Source of the DNA: a virus
Direction: 5' to 3' (one strand)
Virus record (IMG/VR): IMGVR_UViG_3300020214_002282
Span: 1-40,949 of that record
DNA length: 40,949 bases
The position numbers were made by a program, and so were the translations under genes. This document shows, piece by piece, positions 8,644 through 40,949 of the stretch. The notes beneath the pieces were generated by a model. That model saw only the letters and a list, made by a program, of their open reading frames with translations, was not told the origin of the DNA and ran no database searches. How positions within the stretch are numbered: position 1 is the first letter of the stretch; every line of letters starts with the position of its first letter.

Positions 8644-9519
8644 TTACCCACGCAGGTAGTCCTCTAAGTTTACCTTCGGACTCCAACCGAGCTCCTCACG
8701 AGCACGTACGTTGTTAGCGAGCGTCTCTCGAGTCTCACCAACGCGTTCCGGAACGTGGATCCAATCGTTGCCGATCATGCGTGCAAGTTCATTGATTGAG
8801 TAGTTCTTTCCCGTTCCGATGTTGATGGGACCGGTCACACTAATCTTCTCAGCCGCAAGAAAGTTAGCACGCACCACATCGGTAATGTGGGTGAAATCAC
8901 GTCGCTGCTCACCGTCACCAACAATTGTCATAGGCTGTCCAGCTTCCATCTGACGCTTGAAGAGTCCCATCACCGGAGCATACTCACCCTTCAGCGGCTC
9001 ACGGGGACCGTAGACGTTGAAATAACGGAGCGAGACTGTCGAGAGACCATAGAGCTTAGTGTAAAGGTCACAGATTTCCTCTCCCTGCCACTTAGAGAGT
9101 GAGTAGGGAGTCGCGCAACCTTTGGGCGCATGCTCGATGAAAGGAGGCTTGGATGCGTGACCGTAGTAAGATGACGAGGCTGAATAGACAACTCGCTTCA
9201 CACCTGCTCGACGACTCATCTCCAGAACGTGTTGGGTGCCAATTACGTTGACAGAGAAACACTCGATCGGATTGTTGATCGTAGGTTGGATCCTGGATCG
9301 AGCTGCAAGGTGAAAGACCACGTCAACACCATGATACACACTCTCATGCAGGTTTCGAATGTCAGCAGCGATGTTTGTCGCTGCCTCGTTCCAGTAGAAC
9401 TGGTCGTTCTGCGGAGCTGACTTGTCATCAACGCAGATTACCTCATCGCCACGAGTGACCAGAGCATCAACAACGTGAGAGCCGATAAAACCGGCTCCGC
9501 CCGTCACAAGCGCTTTCAT
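8644..9519 (-). CDS. NAD-dependent NDP-sugar epimerase/dehydratase (GalE-like SDR)
   Basis: This 291-residue extended short-chain dehydrogenase is of the nucleotide-sugar epimerase type. It has ALVTGGAGFIGSHVVDAL (GxxGxxG, NAD binding), DVVFHLAARS, the catalytic Ser-rich SASSSYYG, YSLSKWQGE (YxxxK) and LRYFNVYGPRE. It could be a UDP-glucose/glucuronate 4-epimerase or a UDP-xylose-forming enzyme; the motifs alone do not decide. The ATG overlaps the stop of the preceding UDP-glucose dehydrogenase C-terminal gene (TAATG), which argues that its substrate may be UDP-glucuronate. The next gene is glf. At 291 residues it is shorter than the usual 310-340. Confidence 0.88.
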   Translation of the reverse strand: MKALVTGGAGFIGSHVVDALVTRGDEVICVDDKSAPQNDQFYWNEAATNIAADIRNLHESVYHGVDVVFHLAARSRIQPTINNPIECFSVNVIGTQHVLEMSRRAGVKRVVYSASSSYYGHASKPPFIEHAPKGCATPYSLSKWQGEEICDLYTKLYGLSTVSLRYFNVYGPREPLKGEYAPVMGLFKRQMEAGQPMTIVGDGEQRRDFTHITDVVRANFLAAEKISVTGPINIGTGKNYSINELARMIGNDWIHVPERVGETRETLANNVRAREELGWSPKVNLEDYLRG

Positions 9520-9821
9520 TACTGCTTCCTTTTGCTCACAGCACGACCGACCTGCTTCTCCCAGTCACGATCATCAGGACCACGAACCTCGAGGTTCTTA
9601 TCCCAAGCAGCTTGCATCACTGATGGCTTCACGCCATATTGACGGGCGACGCTCATCAGCGCGTTGATGTCCTTTGGAAAGCAGTTATGAGTAAAAATTC
9701 CGGTCTCGTATTCGCACCAATAGAGATCATCCTCTTTGATGTTTGAATCTAGCTCAAGGTTGTAGACGCTTCCATTGAAGCTCATGCTCTTAACGCCATC
9801 GACAGTAACACGCTTTATCAT
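9519..9821 (-). CDS. Split-intein C half plus C-terminal part of UDP-glucose 6-dehydrogenase
   Basis: The product has 100 residues. The first 46 look like the C-terminal piece of a split intein: SVYNLELDSN (block F-like) and GIFTHN followed by Cys (block G, with the penultimate His, terminal Asn and +1 nucleophile). The remaining 54 residues start CFPKDINALMSVARQYGV. CFPKD is the catalytic-cysteine motif of UDP-glucose dehydrogenase (GGxCFPKD), followed by the helix and short C-terminus of the enzyme. The other half of the enzyme, ending GFGGH, is encoded 300 bases upstream. Trans-splicing would give GFGGH-CFPKD and a 323-residue enzyme. The ATG overlaps the stop of the endonuclease remnant (ATGA) and has an AGAGG nine bases upstream. 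Confidence 0.92.
   Translation of the reverse strand: MIKRVTVDGVKSMSFNGSVYNLELDSNIKEDDLYWCEYETGIFTHNCFPKDINALMSVARQYGVKPSVMQAAWDKNLEVRGPDDRDWEKQVGRAVSKRKQ
9684..9821 (-). other. C-terminal split-intein coding segment
   Basis: These 46 codons run from the ATG to the terminal Asn. The segment ends THN directly before the TGC (Cys) codon at 9683-9681 that resumes the dehydrogenase. Within it are the VYNLELDSN beta-strand and the DLYWCEYETGIFTHN segment, the order seen in C-inteins of the short trans-splicing phage type. Its length matches the 35-50 residues usual for C-inteins. Splicing activity is inferred, not shown. Confidence 0.88.
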
Positions 9822-10088
9822 AACTTAACGCCTCTTTCTAGTAGTGAATTCTTAGTCAAGAGTTCAATTTTTACACCAGGATTACTTTCTAAGACGTAAG
9901 ATAGCTTGTTTGATTGTAGTCTCAAAAAATAATCAGACTTAACTTCAATAAAGTAATTTTCTCCAAGCTTAAAGTCTGGGTAATAAAAACGCTCTTTTGT
10001 ATTCAATGCCACAAGCATCGCATCTAAAGTAACAGACAGTTTTGCTCTTTGGGCTCAGCTGCTTATCAAAATTCTCATAACTGATCAT
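9818..10088 (-). pseudogene. Decayed homing-endonuclease gene between the intein halves
   Basis: Two fragments in different frames lie between the intein halves. The first (10088-9969, 39 codons) contains a zinc-finger-like CYFRCDACGIEYKRAF and then stops. The second (from about 10018 to 9818, 66 codons) contains RFYYPDFKLGENYFIEVKSDYF, which has the PD...E-x-K spacing of a PD-(D/E)XK/Vsr-like nuclease (D15, E25, K27). Neither alone is a complete enzyme: the usual middle of such nucleases is missing and the frames disagree near an A-run. Known fractured genes carry a free-standing endonuclease at exactly this place, so this is best read as its remnant. Programmed frameshifting is a less likely alternative. 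Confidence 0.7.
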
Positions 10089-10121
10089 CATATTTTAGAT
10101 ATGATGCTCGATGCTTTCCAA

Positions 10122-11246
10122 TTATGCATTTAGGAAAATAACATCACCCCCAGCAATATCTGCAGCTCGAACTAAAATAATCTTGCTATCGCGCTCAATC
10201 GGTACGAGATGATCAGATGTACACCAGAATTTCTTTCCGTCGAAGGAAAGCTCGATCATCTCGCCAGAATAATCGTTCTTGACAACCGTTCTGATGCTCT
10301 TGATATTGCTCTCAGCAAGCGTGTGATTGCACGAAACTACCTCTAGATTCTTCTGACCACAGGAAAATCGTTCGTACAGTTCAGAAATCTTTATCGGCCT
10401 ATTGTCGCTCATGGTAACAAGGGTTTCACCAGGAACGCAGTGTCCTCCAAAACCTCGAACGTAACGACCATCGTGAGTCGGGACAGGACCCGGAACAGAC
10501 CAATGAGTTTCACCAAGGCGCGTGTCAAACTTCGCGTATTCTACCACCTTGTCGTAGTCGATATTGAGACCATCAGCGTCTAGAGCTTCACAAATCTGTG
10601 CGACCTCATTGGCAAAAGAGACCTTGACGGACAGCAGACAGTTGGTAACGTACTTGACCATCTCTGCCGTAGTCGAGCTCGTCTTGATGATTGGAACCTT
10701 TGGAAATGCTCTCTGAAAAACGTGCTTCACAGTATTGATGTACGGGCGGGGACCACCGAGAACAATTCGATTCTGCTCTCGCATATCATTGACAGCGTTC
10801 GCTTCGGTCAGGAACTCAGGATTGAACACAACATGCAGACCCCTATCGTTGAACATCCCGTTCCAGCGCTCCGTTGCACCGGGCGGAACGGTCGACTTCA
10901 CGACAGCGATACGCTCAGGAGAGTCCGACAAGTAAGGGGCTAAAGCGAGAAGCTCCAGAACGTCCTCAACGATTGACACGTCAGGAGATCCGTCCTCATA
11001 CATGGGAGTCGGAACGCAGACAAAGTACACTCCCGTGAATCCGGGTGTTCCTTCACACCCTTTCGCAAATTCGGAGATTGATCCAGGACAGATGATCTCA
11101 TCATTAAGATTTCTCTTGAAAGTATTGATACCACCAGGCGCCAGCTTACCTGCCCTGTCGTAAACAAACACAGTTTCGCCACGTTCGGAAAAAACTGTTG
11201 TGAGGCTCCCACCTACGAAGCCTTGACCAATTACGCCGATGCTCAT
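10122..11246 (-). CDS. N-terminal part of UDP-glucose 6-dehydrogenase plus split-intein N half
   Basis: Residues 1-269 are the NAD-binding and central domains of UDP-glucose/GDP-mannose dehydrogenase, which oxidises UDP-glucose to UDP-glucuronate. Visible are IGVIGQGFVGGSL (GxGxxG), YFVCVPTPM, VVKSTVPPGATE, FNPEFLTEANAV (active-site Glu region) and EMVKYVTNCLLSVKVSFANE (Lys and Asn of the site). The frame reaches GFGGH, the residues right before the catalytic Cys, and then changes into about 105 residues of intein: CVPGETLVTM (block A), CTSDHLVPIE (block B, TxxH), ending GGDVIFLNA and stop. The ATG at 11246 has AAGGAG upstream. It follows gmd and precedes the epimerase and glf genes. The missing C-terminus lies in the gene at 9519-9821. 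Confidence 0.94.
   Translation of the reverse strand: MSIGVIGQGFVGGSLTTVFSERGETVFVYDRAGKLAPGGINTFKRNLNDEIICPGSISEFAKGCEGTPGFTGVYFVCVPTPMYEDGSPDVSIVEDVLELLALAPYLSDSPERIAVVKSTVPPGATERWNGMFNDRGLHVVFNPEFLTEANAVNDMREQNRIVLGGPRPYINTVKHVFQRAFPKVPIIKTSSTTAEMVKYVTNCLLSVKVSFANEVAQICEALDADGLNIDYDKVVEYAKFDTRLGETHWSVPGPVPTHDGRYVRGFGGHCVPGETLVTMSDNRPIKISELYERFSCGQKNLEVVSCNHTLAESNIKSIRTVVKNDYSGEMIELSFDGKKFWCTSDHLVPIERDSKIILVRAADIAGGDVIFLNA
10125..10439 (-). other. N-terminal split-intein coding segment
   Basis: These 105 codons start at the TGC (Cys1) at 10439-10437, directly after the GGH of the dehydrogenase. Block A (CVPGETLVTM) and block B (CTSDHLVP, with the T-x-x-H that supports the N-S acyl shift) are intact. 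No endonuclease domain is fused to it. The segment ends after block-B-distal strands with a stop codon, the usual break site of natural split inteins. Function is inferred from the motifs and from the matching C half at 9684-9821. Confidence 0.9.
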
Positions 11247-11296
11247 TTGGGCTCCTTGATTACTATTTTCCCTTCTGCATCAAGAATTTTCAAGAT

Positions 11297-12268
11297 CTAT
11301 TCGGACTGATTCTTCCAGTGATCAACCATCTCGGCTATCATAGCTTCAAAAGTGTATTCAGGTTCCCAACCCAAAAGTTTCTTTGCTTTTGAGGGATCAC
11401 CACAGAGGTAGTTGAGCTCTTCAGGACGCCTAAAACGATCATCAGTAACTACGTAGTCCTTGTAATCGAGGCCAAGCTGTCTAAATGTAACTTCACACAG
11501 ATCTCGAACTGAATGAGTCCGACCCGTAGCTATCACAAAGTCGTCAGGAGCATCGTGATTGACGATCATACGCATTCCCTTGACGTAATCCTTCGAATGT
11601 CCCCAGTCACGATATGAATCAAGGTTTCCAAGAACTAGCTGATTAGCTTTACCCTTATAGATTTGAACAGCAGTCTTAACGACCTTATTGGTGACAAAGT
11701 TCGTTCCACGACGCGGAGATTCATGATTGAACAAGATACCATTGCAAGCATGAAGATTGTACGCGTGTCTGTAATGCCTTACGAGATTGTATCCAAGTAG
11801 CTTGGCGCACCCATATGGACTAACGGGCTTCATCTGCGTTGATTCATTCTGCGAACCATTAGCTTCAATCGAGTTTCCAAACATCTCAGATGATGAAGCT
11901 TGATAAAACTTAGCTTTTGGAGCTATGTTGCGATACGCTTCAAGAACATTCAAAACACCGTTAGCGTTCGTCTGAATCGTGAATGCTGGGATATCGAAGC
12001 TTATCCTCACGTGGCTCATAGCTGCTAGGTTGTATATCTCGTCAGGCATTACCTCACTCATCACGTGATTGATCGAGAAAGGATCCAGTAAGTCACCGTA
12101 GAACGTGGTGATCCTGTTGGAGATATGTCGAATACGTGCGTCCTGATTTTCAGCCACAGAATGACGACGAGTTATCCCAAAAATCTCATAATCAAGATCG
12201 AGAAGATGCTCAGCTAGATAACTTCCGTCCTGTCCCGTAATTCCTGTGATCAAAGCTCTCTTTTTCAT
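11297..12268 (-). CDS. gmd: GDP-mannose 4,6-dehydratase
   Basis: This enzyme converts GDP-mannose to GDP-4-keto-6-deoxymannose, the branch point for GDP-fucose, GDP-rhamnose and GDP-perosamine. The sequence has ALITGITGQDGSYLAEHLL (NAD(P) site of Gmd), GITRRHS, YNLAAMSHV, the catalytic FYQASSSEMFG with Ser/Glu, SPYGCAKLLGYN (YxxxK variant) and GILFNHESPRRGTNFVT, all diagnostic for Gmd. At 323 residues it is slightly short of the usual 340-370. No GDP-fucose synthase was seen nearby, but a DegT aminotransferase precedes it and a GT10 fucosyltransferase-like gene lies further upstream. It has its own AGGAAG site before the ATG at 12268. Confidence 0.95.
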   Translation of the reverse strand: MKKRALITGITGQDGSYLAEHLLDLDYEIFGITRRHSVAENQDARIRHISNRITTFYGDLLDPFSINHVMSEVMPDEIYNLAAMSHVRISFDIPAFTIQTNANGVLNVLEAYRNIAPKAKFYQASSSEMFGNSIEANGSQNESTQMKPVSPYGCAKLLGYNLVRHYRHAYNLHACNGILFNHESPRRGTNFVTNKVVKTAVQIYKGKANQLVLGNLDSYRDWGHSKDYVKGMRMIVNHDAPDDFVIATGRTHSVRDLCEVTFRQLGLDYKDYVVTDDRFRRPEELNYLCGDPSKAKKLLGWEPEYTFEAMIAEMVDHWKNQSE

Positions 12269-14899: not shown

Positions 14900-15232
14900 C
14901 TAAAATTTGATTGTGACGCTAGCAGCGTCTTCCATGAACTTTTTAACTTTGTTTAGCGACGTAGACTCAAGGTCAAGATTCATACGATCCATCTTGTTCA
15001 TAATCGAGTCAGGGATTGTTATGATCTGGCTCTTGGTGTGATCGCCCTCGATGTCAGTCGACAGAAAATTGACATTATGGCGCTTGAACTTTTCTACTAG
15101 CACAGTGCCGATGCTGCCGTTAGCTCCTGTGATCAGAACTCTCTCATTCAAATTTTCTAATCTGTTCTCAATGCTTACGAGCTGTTGAAGCTCTTTTCTA
15201 CCTAGAACTTTCTCGAGTGAAAGTTTGTCCAT
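14900..15232 (-). CDS. Truncated NAD-binding polysaccharide dehydratase (CapD/FlaA1-like remnant)
   Basis: The product has 110 residues. Residues 1-65 look like the start of a CapD/PglF-type NDP-sugar 4,6-dehydratase: LSLEKVLGRKELQQ, then RVLITGANGSIGTVLVEKF (NAD-binding GxxGxxG) and FLSTDIEGDH. Family members continue for another 200 or more residues with the SYK catalytic site; here the frame passes straight into a short charged tail and stops. It therefore cannot be an active dehydratase. An in-frame internal deletion is the simplest explanation. The ATG at 15232 follows the preceding stop closely, with GGGAGG 11 bases upstream. Confidence 0.6.
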   Translation of the reverse strand: MDKLSLEKVLGRKELQQLVSIENRLENLNERVLITGANGSIGTVLVEKFKRHNVNFLSTDIEGDHTKSQIITIPDSIMNKMDRMNLDLESTSLNKVKKFMEDAASVTIKF

Positions 15233-15236
15233 AATC

Positions 15237-16298
15237 TTAGAATCCTCCCTTAATCTTTTTGTCAAAAACTTTCAAATTATCAGAATCTCTTTCCAAGCAA
15301 ATAGAATCGCAGCTTGGATAAGGATTGGAGTTCGAGAAGTCATTCACTATCAATCTCTTAGCATGCAGAAGATCAAAAATAATATGATCGTATTTTATAC
15401 CGATTCTTTCAAGTTGCTCTTCAGTTTGAGATTTGAATCTGCTTGACCTTGCAGTCGTGAGTATGAGTTGAGTTCTTCCATCTTTTTTTATATCTTTTAG
15501 ATACTCTACATTTTTATGTAGAGTGTCAGTCTCTCCCCACACTGGAGCAAAAAACTCTGAGGAATTCTTCACAATCACTCCGTCGATATCGATAAACAGA
15601 GTTTTGAAAGTGCTCTTGTAACCAAGCCAATCTTCAAGTGTTCCCCAATCTTCGTAACCGCCACATGTCTTTCCAAAAAACACCGTATTTTTGTTGAGCA
15701 TCATATGAGAAATGACATGGGAAACATATAAGTCTGGTAGATGTTTGATTTCATTGAAAGATTCAATAAATTGCTTGCTGGACCTGAACGAATAACCTCC
15801 TACGCAGAACGTTTCAGAAATTACTTTTTTCTCAGCTATTGAAATGATTTCAAAATTATCATTCACAATACAGTAACTCTTGTTCGTAACATCAGATCTC
15901 TTAGCTGACGAAATGTTCGCCAGAACTATCTCGTTTTCTGAATTTAGACCAACAGAGAATTGATTATCGCAATCTTTGATAAAGAACGAAACGTCCGACT
16001 GTAATGATTCGAGATATTTCACGACAGTTTCTGGTTGAGAGCTTGTTTTTTCTTTTAGCGAGAAAATCTCTACGTCGTGAGATATGCCAGCATTAGAAAA
16101 CGCGCGCTTGATTCCATCTTCGTTTCCTACCGTGAATTTTTCTAATGCGATCAGAACAATCTTATCAACTGGCGATAGATCAAGCTCTTTGATCGCATCG
16201 CAAACCATAAGACTACCGTTGGGCTGCGTTAAAAGCCACTTAGGCCTGACTCCTGGAAATCTACTAGACTCTCCCGCGCATGGTAATATTAGAAGCAA
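15237..16298 (-). CDS. Nucleotidyltransferase fused to HAD-like phosphatase
   Basis: This 353-residue protein has two domains. Residues 1-225 are a sugar-1-phosphate nucleotidyltransferase-like domain: LILPCAGESSRFPGVRPKWLL (the G-x-G-x-R...PK nucleotide loop), FIKDCDNQF (metal-binding Asp) and a later FCVGGYSF. Residues 230-353 are HAD-like: LFIDIDGVIV (nucleophile D237, general acid D239), ILTTARSS (motif II) and a later Asp-containing LIVNDFS. The start is a TTG at 16298 with AAGGA upstream, overlapping the kinase gene by 35 bases. With the kinase and the NTase fragment next to it, this resembles a pathway that phosphorylates and activates a small sugar or alcohol. The substrate is unknown. 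Confidence 0.82.
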   Translation of the reverse strand: MLLILPCAGESSRFPGVRPKWLLTQPNGSLMVCDAIKELDLSPVDKIVLIALEKFTVGNEDGIKRAFSNAGISHDVEIFSLKEKTSSQPETVVKYLESLQSDVSFFIKDCDNQFSVGLNSENEIVLANISSAKRSDVTNKSYCIVNDNFEIISIAEKKVISETFCVGGYSFRSSKQFIESFNEIKHLPDLYVSHVISHMMLNKNTVFFGKTCGGYEDWGTLEDWLGYKSTFKTLFIDIDGVIVKNSSEFFAPVWGETDTLHKNVEYLKDIKKDGRTQLILTTARSSRFKSQTEEQLERIGIKYDHIIFDLLHAKRLIVNDFSNSNPYPSCDSICLERDSDNLKVFDKKIKGGF

Positions 16299-17127
16299 AT
16301 GAAATTTCCTTTATGATAGACTCTAGCAAAAATCCTAAGATATGATTCTTTTCAGTATATGGGACAATACGAAAAAGGCTAAGCGCTTGAATCTTTTTCA
16401 AAGTCTTCAAATCAATAGACGACTTTAACTTGTCAAACATCAGATTTTCAAAGTACTTCCATCTAATTTTGACGCCCGATTTATCGCATGAACCGTTGTA
16501 GTGGTGAACGCTCCATTGGTGCTCCGTATCCTGAAGTATCTTAGCAAAATCCTCGTATGGAGTTTCAATCGGTGGATTTAGAAAGTCTATGAAAAATACT
16601 TCATTGTTTTCGCTTATCAGAACATTTGAGAAAGTCAAATCTCCGTGACATTTCCCCGTCAGAATATTGCTCGGTAGATCGTTCAACAAAAAATTTTCAA
16701 TATTGAGCAATGTCTCGTGATTCACTTTCTTTTGATCAAAAGCTTTTTTAGAAACGTCGAGCACTTTTCGCTCCCATCTTTCGATTGGAAATTGTTGCAA
16801 CAACGATTCTTCAAATTCGTCTTTGATAAAATCAGTTATGATATCACAGACTTTTTCGTAAGTCTCATTCGAAGATATCCCAGTGAACGTTACAAAATCG
16901 AAAGATTTAACGTATTGCATCTCTACAATGTAACGATCATTATCGATAATTTGCTTAATAACTTTTGGAGACTTAATCAACGTATGATTAAAGTCAACCT
17001 GCTTTTTTATTTGCTGCGACAGCCTGTCTGAAATTTCAAGATTGCAAGATTTTCTGACAATCGGAAGATTTTCTGAATCCTGAACGATATCGACTGGACA
17101 ACCTGAATTTCCGACGATTTTTATCAT
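16264..17127 (-). CDS. Aminoglycoside phosphotransferase-like small-molecule kinase
   Basis: This 287-residue kinase belongs to the APH/choline-kinase superfamily. The catalytic loop CHGDLTFSNVLI (HGD-x4-N) and VFFIDFLNPP (the DFG-like metal Asp) are clear around residues 158-185, followed by YEDFAKILQD. The N-terminal lobe is diverged. Between nucleotidyltransferase genes it probably phosphorylates a sugar or amino alcohol that the NTase then activates. An antibiotic resistance role is unlikely given the cluster. The ATG at 17127 overlaps the stop of the gene before (ATGA). Confidence 0.82.
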   Translation of the reverse strand: MIKIVGNSGCPVDIVQDSENLPIVRKSCNLEISDRLSQQIKKQVDFNHTLIKSPKVIKQIIDNDRYIVEMQYVKSFDFVTFTGISSNETYEKVCDIITDFIKDEFEESLLQQFPIERWERKVLDVSKKAFDQKKVNHETLLNIENFLLNDLPSNILTGKCHGDLTFSNVLISENNEVFFIDFLNPPIETPYEDFAKILQDTEHQWSVHHYNGSCDKSGVKIRWKYFENLMFDKLKSSIDLKTLKKIQALSLFRIVPYTEKNHILGFLLESIIKEISFASNITMRGRV

Positions 17128-17444
17128 TTTAGTGTAAAGACTCTATCTTCTGTCCACGGCTTATCAAATTTTCTTCTAAGAAGAACAGTGTAGTCGAATC
17201 TATTCACATTCAAATCATGAATTGACAACCACAAAAGAGCATTTTCTAAAAAACTCTGCACGTCGAAAGTCTCTTCCTGCTCCTTGGTGCAAATGAAAAA
17301 AATGTCGTATTGATCAAGATCACCAAAACTTTCTAAGGTCTTTTCAATGAAAGTTATATCTCCAATTTTCAGAAATGGCTTAAATACGCCACCGAAACGA
17401 TCTCCTTTCCCAGCTATTGGAAAGAGAAGGTTGATCTTGCTCAT
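17124..17444 (-). CDS. Truncated sugar nucleotidyltransferase
   Basis: The product has 106 residues. The N-terminus, NLLFPIAGKGDRFGGVFKPFLKIGD then FIEKTLESF, is the nucleotide-binding start of a nucleotidyltransferase (G-x-G-x-R/F...KP). Full enzymes need about 220-250 residues with DxD metal sites further on; here the frame passes after about residue 60 into a short unrelated-looking tail and stops. It is probably non-catalytic and looks like a second internal deletion within 2.5 kb. GAGG six bases before the ATG is intact, so it may still be translated. Confidence 0.62.
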   Translation of the reverse strand: MSKINLLFPIAGKGDRFGGVFKPFLKIGDITFIEKTLESFGDLDQYDIFFICTKEQEETFDVQSFLENALLWLSIHDLNVNRFDYTVLLRRKFDKPWTEDRVFTLK

Positions 17445-40644: not shown

Positions 40645-40949
40645 TCACTGAATCTCGATGCTTCTCGACTTACCATGTCCGGTGGACGGGAAAGTAATAT
40701 CGAGCATGCCCGAATCCAGCCGTGCCTCGATCGCCTCGGCGTTGATCGACTCGGGAACAACCCACTGGCCCTTCCACGTCTGTGCACCGTGACGGGTATT
40801 CCTCGTTGCCTCGACGGTGAGGACGCGACCCTTCATGTCCATCCGAACATCAGAGCGTGAGACCCCAGGTATCTCAATGTTGAGATGATCCTCGGTCTCG
40901 CCACGCTGATAATCGTATCGTGGGGTCCAGCCTGTCGAACGGGTGGAAA
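40645..40949 (-). CDS. Hsp20 / small heat-shock protein (partial, 5' end outside window)
   Basis: The C-terminal 101 codons of an alpha-crystallin-type small heat-shock protein are present and continue to the window edge. EDHLNIEIPGVSRSDVRMDMKGRVLTVEATRN is the start of the alpha-crystallin domain, and ARLDSGMLDITFPS corresponds to the conserved G-x-L strand. The C-terminal tail RSIEIQ has the I-x-I motif that anchors oligomers. Such proteins are frequent in T4-like cyanophages and marine myoviruses. The protein holds unfolded proteins without ATP; a role in virion assembly is inferred. Confidence 0.92.
   Translation of the reverse strand, partial: STRSTGWTPRYDYQRGETEDHLNIEIPGVSRSDVRMDMKGRVLTVEATRNTRHGAQTWKGQWVVPESINAEAIEARLDSGMLDITFPSTGHGKSRSIEIQ

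Follow-up and report, generated by a model that had tools for sequence, protein, structure and literature searches.

The DNA analysed here, termed the window, comes from an uncultured phage and is the whole of the 40.9 kb virus record IMGVR_UViG_3300020214_002282 (positions 1 to 40,949). In this stretch, UDP-glucose dehydrogenase (UGDH) is encoded as two separate minus-strand genes, placed inside a run of glycan genes, and each of the two carries one half of an intein. An upstream-gene stop and a downstream ATG are separated by 300 bases, in which the remains of an endonuclease gene can be recognised. The coordinates and motifs that an earlier note on this DNA had assigned to both genes were confirmed. 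The features of the locus, all on the minus strand, are as follows, with lengths in amino acids (aa) and open reading frames abbreviated as ORFs.

11246-10122, minus strand: upstream gene, 374 aa, UGDH residues 1-269 plus the intein N half, then a stop
10440..11246, minus strand: N-extein, UGDH residues 1-269, NAD-binding and central domains, ending in GFGGH (Pfam PF03721 9e-25, PF00984 6e-14)
10125..10439 (stop 10122-10124), minus strand: intein N half, 105 aa, with Cys1 and block B (TSDH) (TIGR01445 3.7e-10)
9993..10091, minus strand: N-terminal piece of the endonuclease remnant (MMISYENFDKQLSPKSKTVCYFRCDACGIEYKR, half a zinc finger), aligning with the N termini of the family endonucleases
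9818..10018, minus strand: C-terminal piece of the endonuclease remnant, a 66-aa ORF, YYPDF...IEVKS, PD-(D/E)XK core (PF24308 3e-4; phrog_945 endonuclease 6e-5)
9818..9835, minus strand: Shine-Dalgarno-like AGAGG (9831-9835) and ATGA overlap, read from the sequence
9821-9519, minus strand: downstream gene, 100 aa, intein C half (46 aa) plus the last 54 UGDH residues
9684..9821, minus strand: intein C half, 46 aa, blocks F and G, MIKRV...GIFTHN, ending in HN (aligns with family C halves; Hint model)
9519..9683, minus strand: C-extein, last 54 UGDH residues from the catalytic Cys (+1), CFPKDINAL (PF00984 1.2e-4)

UGDH domains are thus found on both sides of the intein, as the earlier note had claimed. 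The PF00984 match of the C-extein covers profile positions 61-92, carrying on from the match in the N-extein, and the C-extein is 94% identical to that of one relative (L001). A first scan gave 80 relatives, with L015, L017 and L018 as the intein carriers among them. In more than 60 intein-free relatives, whose N-extein is up to 87% identical to that of the window, UGDH is continuous across the insertion point, and thus the insertion neither adds nor removes a UGDH residue. Joining the two halves restores the GFGGH-CFPKD motif that these empty sites hold uninterrupted, with no residue lost or gained, which bears out the earlier proposal. The UGDHs of the window and of its intein-free relatives are short (about 318-325 aa) and stop after the central domain, without the usual C-terminal UDP-binding domain, so that UDP-glucose remains a putative substrate.

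The arrangement could in principle be a contiguous intein disrupted by a sequencing or assembly error, given that it comes from a single metagenome contig and that the N and C halves happen to share a frame. Nevertheless, 10 in-frame stops lie over the 300 bases, the intein region has 10, 14 and 22 stops in its three frames, and independent viral contigs show an identical split position. The fused close relatives that would have exposed such an error were not found either: close relatives lack the intein, and further UGDH loci with an intein of the split clade are mostly split too. This explanation was rejected as refuted in practice and its probability is negligible. The GC (guanine plus cytosine) fraction is 0.33 in the gap compared with 0.51-0.53 in the exteins. 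Joining at the RNA level by a group I or group II intron, or by recoding, is likewise exceedingly improbable: group I introns do interrupt phage genes, but no Rfam intron family matched positions 9400-11400 even at an E value of 1 (a single chance snoRNA match was returned), both halves encode intein domains, and the stops are too many for recoding.

Signatures and fold of the intein halves

The N half runs from CVPGETLVTM through CTSDHLVP to FLNA and a stop, ending where the canonical endonuclease would sit in an intein. In the profile searches that the earlier note had proposed for both halves, the N half passed the family cut-off of the NCBIfam model intein_Nterm (TIGR01445) and gave 6.5e-6, below the cut-off, with PF14890, while the C half was not recovered by the curated intein_Cterm model. 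A profile built from 12 family inteins matches solved inteins, namely Mja KlbA (6e-15) and the split intein NrdJ-1 (5e-7). Moreover, an AlphaFold model of both halves together, obtained by translating through the stops of the intein region, adopts a Hint fold, with a pLDDT (predicted local distance difference test) above 90 over most of the intein part; the linker in this model is meaningless because the model reads through stops. A structure search with the Hint model returned 48 PDB matches at E<=0.001, almost all of them Hint-domain proteins.

With 105 and 46 aa in separate ORFs and a break at the endonuclease insertion position, the element has the make-up of a naturally split intein. All class-1 splice residues are present in the window (Cys1, TxxH as TSDH, His-Asn and Cys+1), and these splice-junction residues do not vary among the 12 family members aligned. 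Directly after the junction stands the catalytic Cys of the UGDH family, which doubles as the +1 splicing nucleophile. From these features the window halves are predicted to undergo protein splicing. A state in which the halves never ligate, either as an unspliced two-chain complex or as a cleavage-only intein, is compatible with the sequence; however, the catalytic Cys+1 would then remain blocked behind 46 intein residues, and the conservation of Cys1 and of the His-Asn-Cys junction in 12/12 aligned members favours full splicing, which makes this outcome very unlikely.

The endonuclease and the distribution of the split intein

Viral contigs were scanned with HNCFPKD and HNCHPRDN. At least 16 distinct viral loci have a split UGDH (the window, L015 and 14 more), and a second dehydrogenase family, with the junction GMGDGGG-CHPRD, is split at the equivalent cysteine in 18 distinct viral loci, giving about 34 distinct split loci across both families. 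L015, L017 and L084 show the two-gene layout of the window with the addition, between the halves, of an endonuclease ORF of 233-240 aa that ends in a stop overlapping the C-half start. Contiguous inteins also occur in viral contigs, in fewer cases than split ones (L106, L107, L110/L130, L112, L259, L271/L279 and L296). With regard to cellular genomes, the HNCFPKD scan found a contiguous intein in at least about 95 UGDHs, at exactly the site used in the window, in agreement with the contiguous archaeal UGDH intein mentioned in the earlier note, and no clear split UGDH among the matches listed.

The phylogeny of these inteins was inferred by maximum likelihood from 28 sampled sequences with the phage split-type intein and 30 contiguous inteins from cellular genomes, located at the insertion site of the window. 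All 28 phage sequences, from both enzyme families, form one clade (support 99/95) apart from the contiguous cellular inteins. The window groups with L122, L123, L125 and L127 (98/85) on a long branch (1.06). Nested within the split clade (98/87) is L296 (3294-3755), a fused mini-intein without endonuclease, and this position suggests a re-fusion from split to contiguous.

Most split loci, 24 distinct ones, have an intact endonuclease between their halves; it is eroded in the window and in L116, where a separate truncation likewise keeps the 3' part, and the gene is lost in L266, L274 and L283, with 17-31 bases left. In L262 (1625-2530) and its relatives, the insert between the halves is unrelated to the common endonuclease and resembles, by eye, a GIY-YIG enzyme. 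In intact copies of the endonuclease the N terminus carries a zinc finger, which is FCS-like in some of them, and the C terminus a nuclease domain; one copy also has a NUMOD3-like stretch. The invariant nuclease residues (E148, P183-D184 and D195-x-K197) place it in the PD-(D/E)XK class. An AlphaFold model of it (pLDDT 85) gave no significant match with Foldseek alone, and the matches came from VIA-align over residues 126-235: TnsA (Z 9.4 over 106 residues), the catalytic domain of I-Bth0305I (7.4) and Vsr (6.8). The fold is similar to that of EDxHD enzymes (Z 7.4), but a Lys replaces the HD arrangement.

In the window, the C-terminal remnant corresponds to the last ~58 endonuclease residues (0/1000 shuffles as good) and the N-terminal piece to about 33 residues (1/1000 shuffles scores as high), and the two lie in different frames. 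The gene has been hit by an internal, frame-breaking deletion and is probably dead. Its 3' end nonetheless retains AGAGG 9 bases ahead of the C-half ATG, and the ATGA formed by the remnant stop overlapping the intein-C start. The same arrangement is seen in most split loci, where the endonuclease stop and the C-half start overlap as ATGA and a Shine-Dalgarno-like AGGA lies in the last endonuclease codons, and a short AGGA/ATGA stretch is retained in L283 and L274 though the endonuclease gene is gone. Translation of the C half may thus depend on this stretch, and the 3' part of the endonuclease may have survived because it holds the ribosome-binding site and the start overlap of the C half.

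Relatives of the endonuclease are also found immediately 3' of intein-free UGDH genes (L086/L087, L088, L089, L090 and L091/L092), and a tree of the endonucleases places these gene-adjacent forms with the intein-borne copies from L015, L114 and L124 (85/99); a very divergent one adjoins the gene in L036. The usual target motif, G[FYS]GGHCFPKD, is altered in 6/6 of the endonuclease-adjacent intein-free UGDHs compared with 18/64 of the others (Fisher p 0.001), or in 5/5 leaving out L036 (p about 0.003, by hand). This association is a hint only, because the sample is small and the statistics ignore shared ancestry. The endonuclease of the relatives would act in homing, by cleaving the intein-free allele at or near the insertion site, to which the altered motifs point only indirectly.

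Beyond the split gene, the glycan run of the window includes minus-strand genes for UDP-galactopyranose mutase, an epimerase, GDP-mannose dehydratase, a DegT-type aminotransferase and glycosyltransferases. Short minus-strand ORFs at 14900-15265 and 17124-17444, within this cluster, resemble truncated epimerase and nucleotidyltransferase genes. Elsewhere on the same strand, genes for PrkA kinase, SpoVR and DUF444 (YeaH) adjoin each other in this phage contig (31702-36139), a trio known from stress and sporulation operons of bacteria, and a gene for an HSP20-type small heat-shock protein (40645-40947) runs off the contig end.

Interpretation and relation to known systems

The reading we favour, at a probability of about 0.86, is that the UGDH gene is broken by a split intein which splices in trans and has outlasted its decayed homing endonuclease. 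A class-1 naturally split intein (Cys1 ... His-Asn/Cys+1) would have been inserted directly before the catalytic cysteine. Two proteins would be made from adjacent and probably co-transcribed genes, and their intein halves would associate into a Hint domain and splice in trans, to yield a complete, 323-residue dehydrogenase (about 35 kDa) that is predicted to be active. In the ancestral element, the halves would have been separated by a free-standing homing endonuclease with a zinc finger and a PD-(D/E)XK domain, an arrangement that relatives of the element retain; in the window this gene would then have lost its reading frame by internal deletion, with the 3' end retained for C-half translation, and the split intein would be kept because the enzyme needs splicing. 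The eroded endonuclease gene in the gap, the sharing of the split intein by many phages and two dehydrogenase families, and the position directly before the catalytic cysteine go beyond the earlier note.

Several observations weigh against this interpretation. The short C half by itself gives an E value of just 0.21 with the curated intein_Cterm model, and the N-terminal remnant piece is short, borderline and weak taken alone. The window intein is only ~30-38% identical to its relatives, so that activity cannot be transferred by close similarity. Furthermore, searches of the cultured phages in INPHARED did not find the split UGDH element: tblastn matches to the N half, to the endonuclease and to an intein N half were confined to UGDH without an intein, distantly related endonucleases and other inteins. 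The decay of the endonuclease and the long branch of the window intein could also mean that the locus consists of dead fragments, with an intein that no longer splices and a UGDH reduced to a broken pseudogene. However, the catalytic splice residues are all retained and the amino-acid constraint on the exteins is strong, with no sign of a pseudogene. The ratio of nonsynonymous to synonymous divergence (omega) is 0.02-0.08 where synonymous divergence (dS) is measurable, a rough guide given that dS is near saturation, and nonsynonymous divergence (pN) is 0.08-0.15 between the window and its relatives, slightly above the 0.05-0.09 among intein-free relatives. Since dS is near saturation a very recent inactivation is possible, but dead fragments are, on the whole, unlikely.

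Broken genes of this type are known already. Dassa et al. reportedly described in 2009 (Nucleic Acids Research 37:2560), mainly in phage, 'fractured genes' in which conserved enzymes, said to be those of DNA synthesis and repair, are broken by split inteins with a free-standing endonuclease between the halves, half of the endonucleases being Vsr-like EDxHD enzymes. They include nrdA and nrdJ (PMC3653736), and the 2009 study is cited in PMC7090010 and PMC3653736. Like them, the window has an enzyme gene interrupted by an intein that is split where the canonical endonuclease would lie; unlike them, it holds just a frame-broken remnant between the halves, the endonuclease being intact in 24 related loci. 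Whereas the fractured genes reportedly belong to DNA metabolism, the phage loci here are sugar-nucleotide dehydrogenases of two enzyme families with one intein clade at the catalytic Cys; the restriction to DNA metabolism describes the 2009 set and is no part of the mechanism. Their endonuclease shares its catalytic fold with I-Bth0305I, Vsr, TnsA and T7 endonuclease I, but its E148, D184 and D195-x-K197 fit PD-(D/E)XK rather than the EDxHD signature.

In M. jannaschii and Halobacteria, the contiguous UGDH intein is known as the 'udp' allele (PMC4071816). It has the insertion site (HN^CFPKD) and Hint family of the window intein; however, it lies in one cellular gene with a large internal endonuclease region, and the phage split inteins are a separate clade. 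The split inteins NrdJ-1, gp41-1, IMPDH-1 and Aes PolB share the break point of the window intein within the Hint fold, and the NrdJ-1 and Aes PolB structures match the window intein family by sequence and fold, but all four interrupt other host enzymes and show low identity.

Because related phages have the endonuclease intact, eroded or missing, the window may represent one phase of a mobile element's life cycle. A full cycle, in which the endonuclease passes from beside an intein-free gene to inside a split intein, erodes with its 3' end kept, is lost and once gives a re-fused mini-intein, is a tentative proposal that we consider rather doubtful at present. It would include cutting of the insertion site by the gene-adjacent endonuclease, as an intein version of 'collaborative homing', and the motif changes hint that endonuclease-bearing intein-free genes may be protected by them. 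Collaborative homing was described for F-CphI and psbA, where an Endo VII type endonuclease works with a group I intron (PMC6083498). There too, the endonuclease gene adjoins a gene whose insertion site is occupied elsewhere by an intervening element; here the element is an intein, the enzyme is of PD-(D/E)XK type and its cutting activity is predicted. F-CphI was rejected as a homologue of the relatives' endonuclease since it is of Endo VII type (PMC6083498).

In line with the earlier note, no sugar-nucleotide dehydrogenase was found among fractured genes in the literature searched. Relative to that literature, the dehydrogenase host, the sharing of one split-intein clade by two families at the catalytic Cys, the placement of a zinc-finger PD-(D/E)XK endonuclease between the two parts of an intein and the series that leads from an intact endonuclease to its loss are new. 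Fractured genes would thereby extend from DNA metabolism to sugar-nucleotide (surface glycan) metabolism, in an enzyme that would have no active form without the spliced product because its catalytic cysteine is the splicing nucleophile too. With ~34 loci at every endonuclease stage, it becomes possible to test directly how split inteins arise, are maintained and perhaps revert, and the new clade of naturally split inteins may provide protein-joining tools.
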